Source of the DNA: a virus | IMG/VR virus record: IMGVR_UViG_3300044632_001003 | Location: 62,001-126,000 of that record | DNA: 64,000 nt | Direction: 5' to 3' (one strand) | In this document: positions 2,797 through 18,873 of the stretch, one piece after another | Layout of the letters: each line of letters begins with the position of its first letter | How positions within the stretch are numbered: position 1 is the stretch's first letter | The notes under the pieces: model-generated | What the model was told of the DNA's origin: nothing | Databases searched by the model: none | The model's input: only the letters and a program-made list of their open reading frames with translations | Position numbers and translations under genes: made by a program

Positions 2797-2994
2797 TCAG
2801 TTCAGAACGTGACGATAATCAATGGATTTGATGCACCAACCAGATGCACAAGTGATCTCTTCAACTAAATCATCTTCATCATCTGCCTCCCAGATTTGAC
2901 CAATGTATTCTGCATTTAGAAGGTCTTTGTCATAAGCAGTCATCTCATCATCGTCATCAGTATCAAACTCAATGTAGAGGATTTGGAACTGCAT
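2797..2994 (-). CDS. Small acidic protein, 65 residues
   Basis: ATG at 2994 overlaps the stop of the upstream gene (TGATG arrangement). The protein has an acidic stretch FDTDDDDEM and a second one EADDEDDLVEE, with a cysteine pair near the end. It is part of a three-gene set of acidic proteins read from the promoter near 3140. Confidence 0.6.
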   Translation of the reverse strand: MQFQILYIEFDTDDDDEMTAYDKDLLNAEYIGQIWEADDEDDLVEEITCASGWCIKSIDYRHVLN

Positions 2995-3119
2995 CAGTAA
3001 TCGTAGTTAGAGTTCAGATACTCATTGACATCGAACTTTTCATCTTTGAGTTCAGGAATGTCAAGGTCAAAGATCTCACCAGGAGCATCTTGAATCTCAG
3101 ACCAGAGTTCATCAAACAT
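2994..3119 (-). CDS. Acidic 41-residue protein
   Basis: ATG at 3119, stop TGA sharing a base with the next ATG. The sequence begins MFDELWSEIQDAPGE and ends NSNYDY; calculated charge is strongly negative. It follows the TACATTACATTCGT...CTGAGA promoter-like leader at 3129-3150. Unknown function. Confidence 0.55.
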   Translation of the reverse strand: MFDELWSEIQDAPGEIFDLDIPELKDEKFDVNEYLNSNYDY

Positions 3120-3128
3120 GGCGTGTCT

Positions 3129-3152
3129 CTCAGGGACGAATGTAATGTATCA
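3129..3152 (-). promoter_or_regulatory. ACATTACATTCGT-type promoter leader
   Basis: Minus strand reads TGATACATTACATTCGTCCCTGAGA before the gene starting at 3119. Near-identical sequence occurs before the ArdA-fusion gene (about 4298-4320) and before the gene at 3346 (about 3354-3374), defining a second class of repeated promoter and leader. Confidence 0.45.
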
Positions 3153-3158
3153 GGGTCT

Positions 3159-3202
3159 GGGGGGCATTGCAACCCCCCTTGTGACACTTACTCAACTGTC
3201 AC
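3159..3202. repeat. G6/C6 hairpin plus GTGACA...TGTCAC hairpin
   Basis: Same pair of inverted repeats as at 2557-2599: GGGGGG-N8-CCCCCC at 3159-3178 and GTGACACTT...AACTGTCAC at 3181-3202, overlapping the stop codon at 3188. Confidence 0.5.
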
Positions 3203-3815: not shown

Positions 3816-4289
3816 CTACCAGTTCTTATTGAACACGAACCCATCTTCGAAATCAAAATCATAACGAAGATTACAGTTCCAGGTAGCATCCCAATCAACT
3901 ACCACGAACGAAGGTGCATCAAACCCATAGATGTCAGTGGTAAATTCTTCGGCAAATGCTGCCTCAGAATCATAAGGACCCTGATAGGCATCTTCGAAAG
4001 ACTGAAGATCCGCCTCATCATAGAGTTCCAGGAATGCATTCACAGCACCCTTACCATAAGAACTACACAGAGTCTGATACAGTTCCTGATACTCTTCGGA
4101 GATCTCATCCTCCAGAGTATCATTGTTCAGGATACCCTTGACAGTCAGCAACTCAGTGTAGAATTCAGTGTATTTGAGTTTGCCATCACGCTCATACCCA
4201 CAGGCACGAACGATTTCAGACATCTTAGCAGGCGGGTTTTGTGCCTGCATTTCATTCACTTTGTTCAGCAGGGAAGAACCAGTCAGCAT
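3816..4289 (-). CDS. ardA: cyAbrB-type domain fused to ArdA-like antirestriction domain
   Basis: A 157-residue protein from ATG at 4289. Residues 1-55 follow the pattern of the cyanobacterial AbrB-like DNA-binding protein: LTGSSLLNKV, then IVRACGY (26-32), FYTELL (43-48), VKG (50-52). Residues 75-157 match the C-terminal domain of ArdA, the DNA-mimic inhibitor of type I restriction enzymes: SFEDAYQGPYDSEAAFAEE (98-115), the VVDWD region (130-134) and a final DFEDGFVFN (147-154). The net charge is strongly negative, as ArdA function requires. ArdA is normally about 165 residues, with its N-terminal domain replaced here. The likely role is blocking host restriction or modification early in infection. 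A cluster of palindromic sites lies just after its stop. Confidence 0.75.
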   Translation of the reverse strand: MLTGSSLLNKVNEMQAQNPPAKMSEIVRACGYERDGKLKYTEFYTELLTVKGILNNDTLEDEISEEYQELYQTLCSSYGKGAVNAFLELYDEADLQSFEDAYQGPYDSEAAFAEEFTTDIYGFDAPSFVVVDWDATWNCNLRYDFDFEDGFVFNKNW

Positions 4290-4297
4290 GGTCGGTG

Positions 4298-4325
4298 TCT
4301 CAGGAACGAATGTAATGTAGATCGG
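4298..4325 (-). promoter_or_regulatory. ACATTACATTCGT-type promoter before the ArdA fusion
   Basis: Minus strand GATCTACATTACATTCGTTCCTGAGACACC precedes the ATG at 4289, nearly identical to the leader at 3129-3150. Confidence 0.45.
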
Positions 4326-4350
4326 ATTGGTCAGGAACGCAAGGGGGTGT

Positions 4351-5893: not shown

Positions 5894-6727
5894 ATGGCAA
5901 GAGGCATCATTTATCTCATCATCAACAAGCAAACTGGTGAAAAATACGTCGGAAACACCACACTTGCAATGAATAAAGAATGGGCACACCAGATAGACCG
6001 TGCTAAAAGAATGTCCCGAGAACCCTTACACAAGGCATTCAGAGAACATGGTGTCCATAACTTTATGATTAGAGAGTTAGATGAATGCGATGAATTAGAG
6101 TTTAATGAGAAAACAAACTATTGGATAGAGCAATACAAACCTGAATACAATCCTGCCATTAGCGCCATAGAGATTGCTAAGAAGGCAATAGAAGAGTATA
6201 AACCTGCCGAAGGCAGGCCTGCCGAAGGCATAAGTGCCGAAGGCATAAGCGCAAGCGCCGCAAGCGCAGCACTACAAGAACTTGCTAAACCAAAACCAAA
6301 AGAAAAAAGAAAAGTTAATACCTCACACTTAATGCAATGGAATGAGAATACCCGTGGAGATGGTAAGAAGACAGGTCTTAAAATAAGATGCAAGAACTTA
6401 GAAACTGGTGTATGCACTGATTATGAATCAGCCAGAGAAGCAGCAACACAAGTGACAGGCAATCCGAATAACCGTGCAAACATTCTATCTGCTGCCAGGC
6501 ATTACCGCATTGCCTATGGTCATCGTTGGCAGATCTTAGAAGAAAAGGAAAAGAAAAAGGCGGTGTTTGGTGTCGATAAAAAAACGGAGATAATTGGTCC
6601 CCGTTGTGAAAGTATTAATGCTGCTGTTCATTTTTTTGAAGGCACCGATAAAAACGGAATTCTCAAGAGTCTGAAGAATCCAGGGCGTTATAGTTGGAAA
6701 GGTTATTACTGGTTCTATGTACGTTAA
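5894..6727 (+). CDS. GIY-YIG homing endonuclease
   Basis: A 277-residue protein, the only large plus-strand gene in the left 60 kb. The N-terminal GIY-YIG nuclease domain shows GIIYLI (4-9) and KYVGNTT (17-23), with basic residues in the following helix and a Glu in KTNYWIEQY near residue 80. A linker rich in Ala-Glu-Gly repeats (about 108-130) is followed by two C-terminal DNA-binding-type segments: a NUMOD/IENR-like YESAREAATQVTG with AARHYRIAYGHRW, and a second INAAVHFFEG...YSWKGYYWFYV unit. These proteins cut DNA and spread their own gene. It stops next to the convergent gene at 6728. The linker coding sequence is made of GCCGAAGGC palindromes, unlike its neighbours. Confidence 0.88.
   Translation: MARGIIYLIINKQTGEKYVGNTTLAMNKEWAHQIDRAKRMSREPLHKAFREHGVHNFMIRELDECDELEFNEKTNYWIEQYKPEYNPAISAIEIAKKAIEEYKPAEGRPAEGISAEGISASAASAALQELAKPKPKEKRKVNTSHLMQWNENTRGDGKKTGLKIRCKNLETGVCTDYESAREAATQVTGNPNNRANILSAARHYRIAYGHRWQILEEKEKKKAVFGVDKKTEIIGPRCESINAAVHFFEGTDKNGILKSLKNPGRYSWKGYYWFYVR
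6203..6275. repeat. GCCGAAGGC palindromic repeat tract inside the GIY-YIG gene
   Basis: Three near-identical units of TGCCGAAGGCA with varying spacers, then GCGCAAGCGCCGCAAGCGC. These encode the linker PAEGRPAEGISAEGISASAASAA. The GC content is far above the rest of the AT-rich gene, so the tract looks like an inserted palindromic repeat that keeps the frame. Confidence 0.75.
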
Positions 6728-12529: not shown

Positions 12530-14152
12530 TCAAGTGGACCCTCTGTGAATGTTTTGTCTCAAATAGTCATACATTGACTGGCATTGTGATGCATAGGACT
12601 GATAGTGTTTTTGACAACCAGTAAAAACATCTGATAGGTAATCCAAATATGCATCACAATCTAATCCTTTTAACTTACCCATTGCCAAATGTAGATGTGC
12701 ATCCACAGGAGAATAATCCATACCTGCAGCAATACATTGAAATCCTGCCCCTGGTTGATATTCCCCAAACTTGTATCGGGCATTTGCAGTGAACATAAAC
12801 TCACTGGTTGCAACAATATCCCCAACCTTACTTTGCATGGATAAAGTATCTGCTATTGTTGAATTAACATCTGCAGAGATTCTACATCTCTCAGTAATAT
12901 CCATCCAATAGTCAGAGTCATGTCTTGGACTGATTGCATAATGCAATGCTACAAATTGTGCTAATTGATAGTAGGTCTGACTCATTGAAAAATTATAAGC
13001 ATCTCTATCCCACTGATTAACAATCCTATTTCTGCGGAGAGTATGGGCAAGAGGAAGAAGGAATTCATATGTTGTTAGCAATCCTGTGCTTTCCAGTGGT
13101 TCAATAAATCCAGCAGCAAGACCAATACCAATCACATTCTTTTTCCAAATCTGATTATGCAAACCCAACTTCATATCAATTGGTCTATATTCCAATTCTT
13201 CAGGATCAACACGATGAGTGTGCTTAATGTGATTCTTGAATTCTTTCAGAGCATCTTCTGAAGAAATGTACTTATCACTATAGACATATCCACCACCAAT
13301 GCGAGACCACAAAGGAATATTCCATACCCAACCATTTGTCAGAGCAGTGCAGTTTGTAAATGGCTCTAATTGTTTCTTTTTATCTTTATATGGAATATGT
13401 GTCGCCCATGCTTTATTGTTTGGAATGATGTGAGAAATCGAATTGAACTTCTCTTCAAGAGCGCCACCCAAGAGCATACTCTTAAATCCTGTACAATCAA
13501 TGAACAAGTCTGCGGTAATTGTTGATCCATCTTTGAGTTTAAGATAATCAACTCCGTTCTCATTTGTAACTACACCATCTACAGTTGAATGAATCAACTT
13601 GACTCCTCTAGGGAGACAAACTGCAGTCTTCAAGTATTGTCCAAATGCTGTTGCATCAAAATGATAAGCAGCATCAAAGTTAAAATTAAATCCTGGAGTC
13701 TTTCCAGTACCATCTGTTGATATTTTTCTTTGTTCAGCAACAGCAGTGATTGGATAAAAACAACGGGCATATGAGTTCTTATCCAGAACATCAGGTCTTA
13801 GTTGTTTAACTAAGTACCAATCATTTCTACTCAGTTGTTCATGAGGAACCGTAGACATCCCAAATGGATAGTGAAAGGAACCAGTCCCCTTTCCTTCAAA
13901 ATCAGTAAATTTAATGCTTAATTTGTATATTCCATCAGTTTTATGCAAGAAATCTCTATCATTCAATCCAAGCAAAGAAGTCCAGTGCTTAATACCACCC
14001 AAGGTGCTTTCACCCACACCAAGAATAGCAAAGTCTGGACTTTCGATGACAGTTAGATCAATTTCAGGAATTTGAGTTGCAATGGTGGCAGCAGACATCC
14101 ATCCTGCCGAACCACCACCGACAACCACAATCTTTTTTATTTCTTTACTCAT
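12530..14152 (-). CDS. Tryptophan-halogenase-like flavoenzyme
   Basis: 540 residues, a full-length match to flavin-dependent halogenases. The FAD-binding GGGSAG lies at residues 12-17; Lys81 in LSIKFTDF matches the position of the catalytic lysine; the diagnostic WxWxIP motif is present as GWVWNIP near residue 270; GIGLAAGFIEPLESTG lies near 335. These enzymes use FADH2, oxygen and a halide to make hypohalous acid, then halogenate tryptophan or other indoles. Cyanomyoviruses are known to carry homologues, with unknown substrate. It stands alone with no visible biosynthetic partner and would need a host flavin reductase. Confidence 0.88.
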   Translation of the reverse strand: MSKEIKKIVVVGGGSAGWMSAATIATQIPEIDLTVIESPDFAILGVGESTLGGIKHWTSLLGLNDRDFLHKTDGIYKLSIKFTDFEGKGTGSFHYPFGMSTVPHEQLSRNDWYLVKQLRPDVLDKNSYARCFYPITAVAEQRKISTDGTGKTPGFNFNFDAAYHFDATAFGQYLKTAVCLPRGVKLIHSTVDGVVTNENGVDYLKLKDGSTITADLFIDCTGFKSMLLGGALEEKFNSISHIIPNNKAWATHIPYKDKKKQLEPFTNCTALTNGWVWNIPLWSRIGGGYVYSDKYISSEDALKEFKNHIKHTHRVDPEELEYRPIDMKLGLHNQIWKKNVIGIGLAAGFIEPLESTGLLTTYEFLLPLAHTLRRNRIVNQWDRDAYNFSMSQTYYQLAQFVALHYAISPRHDSDYWMDITERCRISADVNSTIADTLSMQSKVGDIVATSEFMFTANARYKFGEYQPGAGFQCIAAGMDYSPVDAHLHLAMGKLKGLDCDAYLDYLSDVFTGCQKHYQSYASQCQSMYDYLRQNIHRGST

Positions 14153-16892: not shown

Positions 16893-17018
16893 TCAGTATG
16901 CCAGTTCTGAATCTGGCACCCAGGGTTCGTCATCACCCAGGTATCCCATCCAATCTTGAGGGTCAGACTCATACATTGCGATTTCCCGCAGTTCGTCAAT
17001 CAGTTCAGACAGGTCCAT
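16893..17018 (-). CDS. Acidic 41-residue protein
   Basis: ATG at 17018, 23 bases after TATAAT (17041-17046). MDLSELIDELREIAMYESDPQDW is acidic and helical. The codons for its last residues (WVPDSELAY) form the dispersed GTGCCA...TGGCAT hairpin, so the repeat is partly coding. Confidence 0.55.
   Translation of the reverse strand: MDLSELIDELREIAMYESDPQDWMGYLGDDEPWVPDSELAY
16898..16919. repeat. GTGCCA...TGGCAT hairpin within a coding end
   Basis: Copy of the dispersed repeat, here inside the last codons of the gene ending at 16893. Confidence 0.5.
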
Positions 17019-17483: not shown

Positions 17484-18281
17484 TTAGTATAATGCCTCTA
17501 GCAGCGGATTCTGGGGTTCCTGTGCCACTTCCTCAACTGGCATAGCATCCTCTATGCGTTGCTTAGCAATCTCATAATATTCTTGTTCAAATTCCATCCC
17601 AATAAACTTTCGATTTAATTTAACTGCAGCAACACCAGTAGAACCAGAACCCATACAGTTATCAAGAACAATCTCACCTTCATTAGAATACGTTTTGATT
17701 AACCATTCCATTAGTGGAACAGGTTTCTGTGTGGGATGCACCTGTTGTTGAGCACTAAAGTCTCTGGAGATATTAAGAACAGACTTGGGATATCTTACAC
17801 CTTCATTACTGAAGGATTTACGTGGTTTCATACCATAACCATGGTCATTCTTGCGACCAACGTATCCCTCTGGATTCTTACTTGTTCTTGAGTACGGTTC
17901 TCCTTTTTCCATCTGTGGGTTGTACGTACCACCTGTTTCCCTGTAAAAAATTAGAACGTTCTCGTGAGTCTTCATTGGTCTGTACTTGGCAAGTCCAGGC
18001 GATCCACATTTGTTCTTGTTCCATACTAATTCGTACCTGAACCATTCTAGTTTTGAGCAGATAAGTTGTGCTGAAAAGGGTTGAGAACCAAATAGACATA
18101 TCACACCTTTAGGTTTGATGATACGCCCATATTGCTGCCACATTTGGTTAAAATCTAAAACTTCATCCCACTTGATGGAAGTAGTCCCATAAGGTGGGTC
18201 GCAGCAGATGAAATCAATAGAATTGTCTGGAATCTCTTTCATGAGTTCCAGACAGTCACCTAGTTGTAAGTCAAAGGGCAT
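17484..18281 (-). CDS. Beta-type DNA methyltransferase (N6-adenine or N4-cytosine)
   Basis: About 265 residues. The catalytic DPPYG (residues 32-36 counted from an upstream ATG at 18293) precedes the AdoMet-binding FxGxG-type motif NCMGSGSTG near residue 220, the order of beta-class methyltransferases. The target-recognition part in between includes HPTQKPVPLMEWL, typical of this class. The start overlaps the restriction-endonuclease-like gene by 11-23 bases. The stop codon lies in the promoter of the next gene, and the last codons (PVEEVAQEPQN) carry a copy of the dispersed GTGCCACTT repeat. Likely role: modification of phage DNA, perhaps paired with the neighbouring nuclease. Confidence 0.85.
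   Translation of the reverse strand: MPFDLQLGDCLELMKEIPDNSIDFICCDPPYGTTSIKWDEVLDFNQMWQQYGRIIKPKGVICLFGSQPFSAQLICSKLEWFRYELVWNKNKCGSPGLAKYRPMKTHENVLIFYRETGGTYNPQMEKGEPYSRTSKNPEGYVGRKNDHGYGMKPRKSFSNEGVRYPKSVLNISRDFSAQQQVHPTQKPVPLMEWLIKTYSNEGEIVLDNCMGSGSTGVAAVKLNRKFIGMEFEQEYYEIAKQRIEDAMPVEEVAQEPQNPLLEALY
17486..17491 (-). promoter_or_regulatory. TATACT promoter module
   Basis: Minus-strand TATACTAACAAGGTAATC; overlaps the last codon and stop of the methyltransferase gene and precedes the ATG at 17460. Confidence 0.45.
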
Positions 18282-18873
18282 CATAACCTTCATGGGCAGT
18301 AATTTTTTTGAGAACAGATTCTTTGTAACATCCTACCAGAAAATCATACGCTTCAGCATGAGTACGCTGAACAGGAGTAGTATTAACCCGCCATTCAATC
18401 TGGAAAGGAAGATTGTTACCGTTAGAAGTGAGTTTGTTGAGAGTTTTAAGAGAAGTAAGATGAACCTCGTTAGTAACTTTATTCAATGAGATGATATAAT
18501 AATCACGATTATTATCTTTGCTGCTATGATTCTTTAAAAGTTCTTGAAACTTCTTCCAACGCTGAACATTAACTTTATCTTCGGGCAAGTCAGTCAGAGC
18601 ATACAGAATCGCTGCTTTCGAAGTAAAATTATCTGCAGCACTACCATACTTGGAAGATTTGATGTTGAGAGGATAACCAAACACCTTGACATCCCACCAG
18701 TTACGCTCTACAGGTTTCTCTACATTCTCACTACCATACTTATCAACCAACAGGTCAATGATAGTATCTTCATCATCAATGCTATTCACACGACCATCGC
18801 CATGCTTTTCACTGACAGAGATGACAATGCTGTTGAGAAACTCAACAACTTCAACAAGAATAGACGGAAACAT
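18271..18873 (-). CDS. Putative type II restriction endonuclease-like protein
   Basis: 200 residues from ATG at 18873, 23 bases after the upstream stop; a longer TTG start is unlikely. Residues 52-94 read EKPVERNWWDVKVFG...LNIKSSKYGSAADNF: an Asp61 and NIK72 that fit the D...(E/D)xK catalytic pattern, with the NIK-S-(x)-ADN arrangement seen in several type II restriction enzymes. It overlaps the methyltransferase gene, the usual geometry of a restriction-modification pair. The family match is by pattern only. Alternatives are a homing-type nuclease or a decayed restriction gene. Confidence 0.55.
   Translation of the reverse strand: MFPSILVEVVEFLNSIVISVSEKHGDGRVNSIDDEDTIIDLLVDKYGSENVEKPVERNWWDVKVFGYPLNIKSSKYGSAADNFTSKAAILYALTDLPEDKVNVQRWKKFQELLKNHSSKDNNRDYYIISLNKVTNEVHLTSLKTLNKLTSNGNNLPFQIEWRVNTTPVQRTHAEAYDFLVGCYKESVLKKITAHEGYDAL

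Follow-up and report, generated by a model that had tools for sequence, protein, structure and literature searches.

A cyanophage protein family joining a cyAbrB-type N-terminal module to an ArdA-like part

Sequence comparison confirms that one viral protein unites a cyAbrB-type segment and a C-terminal ArdA part. The rear part of ArdA is joined here to the front module of cyAbrB, including the cysteine of its redox switch, which suggests that the virus aims a DNA-look-alike decoy at the DNA-binding machinery of the host. Our preferred explanation, to which we assign a probability of about 0.4, is that an ArdA-type DNA mimic may be assembled or docked via the putative oligomerisation/redox module of host cyAbrB.

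The fusion gene and its surroundings

The window, that is, the whole stretch of DNA that was analysed, comprises 64,000 nucleotides of a 205-kb IMG/VR virus record. It encodes a tail fibre, a baseplate hub/tail lysozyme, a helicase, and a tryptophan halogenase. As these genes are shared with cyanophages such as S-SSM7, the virus is most probably a cyanophage. The halogenase gene (12530-14152, minus strand) matches phrog_2928 with E=6e-137. An ORF of a HNH/GIY-YIG-type homing endonuclease (5894-6727, plus strand) lies on the strand opposite to that of its neighbours. At 17578-18516, a stretch with possible relevance to restriction evasion shows 76% identity to the region for DNA adenine methylase/restriction endonuclease in Synechococcus phage ACG-2014a.

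The fusion gene is an intact ORF with an ATG start (Table 1), and the genes around it are small and mainly belong to phage families without known function. The linker between its two parts differs in length among relatives.

Table 1. Features of the fusion gene, in window coordinates
Feature	Position	Strand	Basis
Complete gene, 157 aa: cyAbrB N-terminal module and ArdA domains 2/3-like part	3816..4289	-	ORF, relatives
Module homologous to the cyAbrB N-terminal part, residues 1-52	4134..4289	-	profile, hhalign, BLASTP, AlphaFold2
Cys30 codon, at the conserved, usually single, cyAbrB cysteine position (C34 of cyAbrB2)	4200..4202	-	
Low-confidence linker, residues 53-62	4104..4133	-	AlphaFold2 pLDDT about 57, residues 51-60
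Putative DNA-mimic part like ArdA domains 2+3, residues 62-157, strongly acidic	3819..4106	-	
Conserved upstream block, promoter-like TTG...TACATTACATTCGT and leader	4290..4345	-	by eye

Inspected by eye, the upstream block lies at the same distance from the gene in most relatives; its promoter-like TTG...TACATTACATTCGT was not called by a consensus scanner. The TACATTACATTCGT block is present ahead of most fusion genes in IMG/VR contigs, and the window contains a second copy at 3120-3175 (minus strand), ahead of a 41-aa ORF (2994-3119). Several of the blocks upstream of fusion genes carry a GC-rich inverted repeat over the putative -35 with both arms changed (by eye only). In addition, we found a palindrome, GTGCCA-N10-TGGCAC, at window positions 1612, 3406, and 4351, with variants at 16899 and 17523, its copies lying within or beside the gaps that separate small genes. 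The looser TGCCA..TGGCA occurs in 7 places, where single-base shuffles average 0.4. The palindrome is a possible operator or terminator.

The N-terminal module and its relation to cyAbrB

Residues 1-52 follow the pattern LTG..LL..V....EIVRACGY...G...T.FY.ELL..KG. The initial annotation had taken this segment both for a cyAbrB-type sequence and for a DNA-binding regulator fold. The homology tests used cyAbrB sequences fetched from plasmids and 80 genome contigs. With the profile of the cyAbrB N-terminal module, the window protein scored 14.1 bits, while the best of 1000 shuffles reached 8.3; most relatives also exceeded the best shuffle, L027 and DSL-LC07 falling below it. In the opposite direction, with the profile of the viral modules, each of the 80 cyAbrB proteins outscored all shuffles (best E=2e-9). 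The two modules, homologous over residues 2-52 of the phage protein, were aligned by hhalign with a probability of 98.1 and a score of 62, against a maximum score of 18 and probabilities of about 12 or below in 60 column-shuffled nulls. BLASTP yielded 45% identity over 58 columns between the window protein and a picocyanobacterial cyAbrB, and a viral relative more similar to cyAbrB showed 49%. As a single query in the phage collection, the window module found the T7-like fusions and no cyAbrB-type protein.

Modelled alone by AlphaFold, the module is compact (pLDDT 94), with a helix, a second helix, a short hairpin, and a further helix. Rank 13 in BFVD is its match to an "AbrB family transcriptional regulator" from a phage, with 36% identity over 56 columns, an rmsd of 2.6, and a probability of 1.00. 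A Foldseek search of the module against PDB returned nothing significant, the top matches being dockerins and assorted regulators with E above 2. The view that the resemblance arose by chance or convergence, the N-terminal part being a leader specific to cyanophage ArdA, could appeal to the modest single-sequence score of the window protein; it is effectively refuted by the profile-profile probability, the identity to picocyanobacterial cyAbrB, and the match of the predicted fold.

The homology is confined to the N-terminal module of cyAbrB. The DNA-binding domain of cyAbrB has been placed C-terminally (PMC4264147), and the AbrB half, tested against the viral module, yielded an hhalign probability of 0.9. 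No fusion protein scored above shuffles with the profile of the cyAbrB C-terminal half, and no PF14250 match was found in the whole 205-kb record. PF14250 covers only residues ~45-113 of cyAbrB, so the LTG/CGY module lies outside the AbrB model. The similarity ends before the AbrB/PF14250 DNA-binding half, and the phage protein has no counterpart of that half. Thus, the cyAbrB-type identity of the segment stands for the N-terminal module and does not extend to the AbrB hairpin half; the suggestion of a DNA-binding regulator fold fails, since that hairpin lies in the missing half and the module has no significant match among solved structures, whether DNA-binding or not.

The module also differs from the rest of the protein in charge. 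By residue composition, it is no part or extension of the DNA mimic, because it is near neutral (net charge +1; mean -0.9 in 32 fusions), whereas the net charge of residues 53-157 is -22 over 105 aa, with a mean of -24 in the same number of fusions (a sequence count and not a surface property). Most non-fused cyanophage ArdAs have differing N-termini with a charge of -5 to -10.

In the cyanobacterial genomes that we searched, the module occurs in cyAbrB, commonly in two proteins per genome. In picocyanobacterium G117, it is, moreover, part of two membrane-anchored proteins with LRV/HEAT repeats (589 and 1110 aa), encoded by adjoining paralogues (contig L229, 2132-3901 and 4240-7572, minus strand) with near-identical N-termini. 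Both proteins consist of a hydrophobic segment, the LTG/CGY module, and then the LRV/HEAT repeats, and Pfam found no DNA-binding domain in them, which fits a role of the module in protein interaction. The same genome encodes a 71-aa acidic stand-alone relative of the module (contig L230, 633-848, minus strand), located beside unrelated small ORFs.

These observations bear on the proposal of an AbrB-like domain in the N-terminal part that binds DNA, either to direct the inhibitor there or for autoregulation of the gene. In polyvalent proteins, the DNA-binding partner ArdC-N has been suggested to bring an ArdA domain to injected DNA (PMC5512222), and there is a weak HTH_48 match in 3 of 20 relatives (best E=0.01), which we dropped as an identity for the module. 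Still, we consider this proposal very unlikely: the AbrB DNA-binding half is absent, the module is neutral and not basic, structure searches returned no significant DNA-binding fold, and the module is found on membrane-anchored repeat proteins.

The cysteine of the module can be related to cyAbrB biology. The nucleoid protein cyAbrB2 resembles H-NS and occupies AT-rich DNA (PMC11368403). Glutathionylation of its single conserved cysteine has been reported to alter oligomerisation and DNA binding (PMC4264147), and this residue has been numbered C34 (PMC13421787). cyAbrB1 binds itself and cyAbrB2 (PMC4264147, PMC13421787). In our set, the CGY cysteine is the sole cysteine in 100 of 108 cyAbrB ORFs, most commonly at residue 33-34; in one of the 108, cysteines occupy positions 7 and 59, as reported for cyAbrB1. 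We conclude from these positions that the module cysteine is C34 of cyAbrB2 and corresponds to Cys30 in the phage protein. From the effect of this cysteine, we infer that oligomerisation and redox control of cyAbrB reside in the module. Thirty-two of the 33 distinct viral fusions retain the CGY cysteine. The position is occupied by Ala in the T7-like fusions of S-CBP1, S-B28, and DSL-LC07; therefore, redox control is not general among the fusions.

The ArdA-like part and the distribution of the fusion

The reading of the C-terminal half as ArdA-like held in profile searches. Residues 62-153 match phrog_36653, "anti-restriction protein", with E=2.6e-13, and so do 20 of 20 relatives. Pfam ArdA (PF07275) scored the window protein at 15.2 bits, under the curated cut-off of 27, and matched all 20 aligned relatives with the best E=9.7e-6. 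The AlphaFold2 model of the full protein (pLDDT 85) retrieved predicted phage antirestriction proteins with E from 4e-9, several of them over 94-100 columns with an rmsd of 1.9-3.1 Å. Foldseek of the full model against PDB returned nothing significant and no solved ArdA chain, so residues 62-157 are assigned to ArdA on the basis of sequence profiles and of predicted models of viral proteins. Searching solved structures by sequence yielded calmodulin, Rab, stromelysin, and peroxidase, all at chance level.

The domains of ArdA span residues 1-61, 62-103, and 104-165, and domains 1 and 2 have been reported to carry the antirestriction activity (PMC3906837). In the window protein, only ArdA profile positions ~65-143 are matched, the match starting near the start of domain 2. 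Hence the three-domain layout is incomplete, residues 1-52 belonging to another family. Like ArdA antirestriction proteins (such as ORF18 of Tn916, PDB 2W82), the phage protein is strongly acidic and borne by a mobile element, and its residues 62-157 match domains 2 and 3; unlike them, the phage protein lacks domain 1 and has an unrelated neutral module at that position. The small proteins sArdC and sArdN, each matching one end of ArdA, are active by themselves (PMC12548430). They resemble the present case in that a piece of ArdA is used alone, and differ from it in being stand-alone domains of bacterial chromosomes without an added module.

The architecture is recurrent and widespread in cyanophages. 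An identical protein is encoded in 9 IMG/VR contigs; full-length relatives were found in 20 viral contigs at first and later in more than 50. The 33 distinct IMG/VR sequences with the module fused to the ArdA part are joined by proteins of five isolated T7-like cyanophages (S-CBP1, S-B28, DSL-LC07, WH11-B, and 7B11-B), which share the two-part layout at 32-34% identity over 92% of the query, and whose genes are annotated as "antirestriction" or "hypothetical". They differ from the window protein by a longer linker and, in those aligned, by the Ala replacement. The initial annotation knew of no described fusion of the two parts. The papers examined likewise contain no description of a fusion of a cyAbrB segment with ArdA, but the search of other cyanophages proposed there revealed the fusion in isolates as well as in IMG/VR contigs. 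We found no such fusion in 244 cyanobacterial genomes.

Other cyanophages combine the parts differently. The anti-restriction proteins of S-TIM54, S-TIM5, S-PM2, and P-TIM68 are similar to the window protein in the ArdA part (30-48% identity) and have another N-terminus in place of the cyAbrB module. In Prochlorococcus phage P-TIM68, the module and ArdA are encoded by separate genes 3.3 kb apart, the stand-alone module being a 52-aa protein annotated as hypothetical (L028, 1498-1656). In Synechococcus phage B23, the module is carried on another protein. The tree of the ArdA part requires two changes of the module label, and a single origin is not rejected (AU p=0.29).

Purifying selection acts on the fusion protein, with the module changing at a lower rate than the ArdA part (pN 0.12 vs. 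0.21; pN/pS 0.29 vs. 0.37). These estimates are relevant to the possibility that the module is a structural or self-assembly device only, that is, a cap or an extra dimerisation unit on a restriction inhibitor of the usual kind, which makes no contact with cyAbrB. The place of the module at ArdA domain 1, with the Pfam match beginning at profile position 65, agrees with such a device, as do the other N-termini of non-fused cyanophage ArdAs and the long N- or C-terminal extensions often found in ArdA genes (PMC3969726). However, the conservation of the module exceeds that of the inhibitor part, and the regulatory cysteine is present in nearly all T4-like fusions, beyond the needs of a spacer. 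On balance, we regard a purely structural role as possible but doubtful.

Possible modes of action

According to the preferred explanation, domain 1 of an ArdA-type inhibitor would have been swapped for the putative N-terminal oligomerisation/redox module of cyAbrB. The acidic ArdA domains 2 and 3 would fill the cleft in which a DNA-recognising protein of the host binds DNA; type I restriction-modification enzymes are the simplest target. Protein-protein contacts would come from the neutral module, either docking on cyAbrB oligomers or pairing with itself. The mimic would thereby accumulate at the nucleoid, the site at which incoming phage DNA encounters host regulators. The module cysteine could control docking or assembly. 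We count in favour of docking or assembly via the module its slower evolution, its occurrence on membrane-anchored proteins, and its presence in P-TIM68 as a gene separate from ArdA.

The initial annotation had also suggested that the inhibitor is targeted to host chromatin. This is plausible, more likely via cyAbrB binding than via DNA binding. A parallel among fusions is found in the polyvalent proteins combining ArdC-N and ArdA, which may likewise carry the ArdA domain to its site of action; there the partner is the DNA-binding ArdC-N and the proteins are mainly from Firmicutes (PMC5512222).

The module may also enter cyAbrB assemblies as a poisoned subunit. The phage protein resembles cyAbrB1 and cyAbrB2 (Sll0359/Sll0822 type) in the N-terminal LTG...CGY...F..AL module and the conserved cysteine, and differs from them in having the putative DNA mimic in place of the C-terminal AbrB half (PF14250). 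If poisoning were the main function, the protein would join cyAbrB oligomers and fill or block their DNA-binding faces, so that host silencing would be relieved or transcription reprogrammed, with antirestriction secondary or lost. The layout fits, as it copies cyAbrB from N- to C-terminus except that a DNA mimic stands in for the DNA-binding half; moreover, cyAbrB2 is H-NS-like on AT-rich DNA, as noted above, and for some ArdA proteins, binding to the transcription regulator AllR and opening of its promoter have been described (PMC13300388). On the other hand, ArdA-type proteins are classically restriction inhibitors, and many cyanophages have ArdA parts without the module. We therefore hold poisoning as the main function to be decidedly unlikely. 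A protein that acts as a poisoned cyAbrB subunit, possibly redox-responsive via the retained cysteine, while also inhibiting restriction seems somewhat unlikely.

If the module docks on cyAbrB, cyanophages would have a general way of reaching the host nucleoid together with global redox and carbon regulation, and the assembly domain of a host nucleoid protein would have been turned against the host by a virus. Even in the plain structural case, domain 1 of ArdA would be exchangeable for an unrelated module. In addition, the occurrence of the LTG/CGY module in cyAbrB, in LRV/HEAT proteins anchored to the membrane, and in proteins of cyanophages points to a hitherto undescribed, mobile domain of cyanobacteria outside the PF14250 model.
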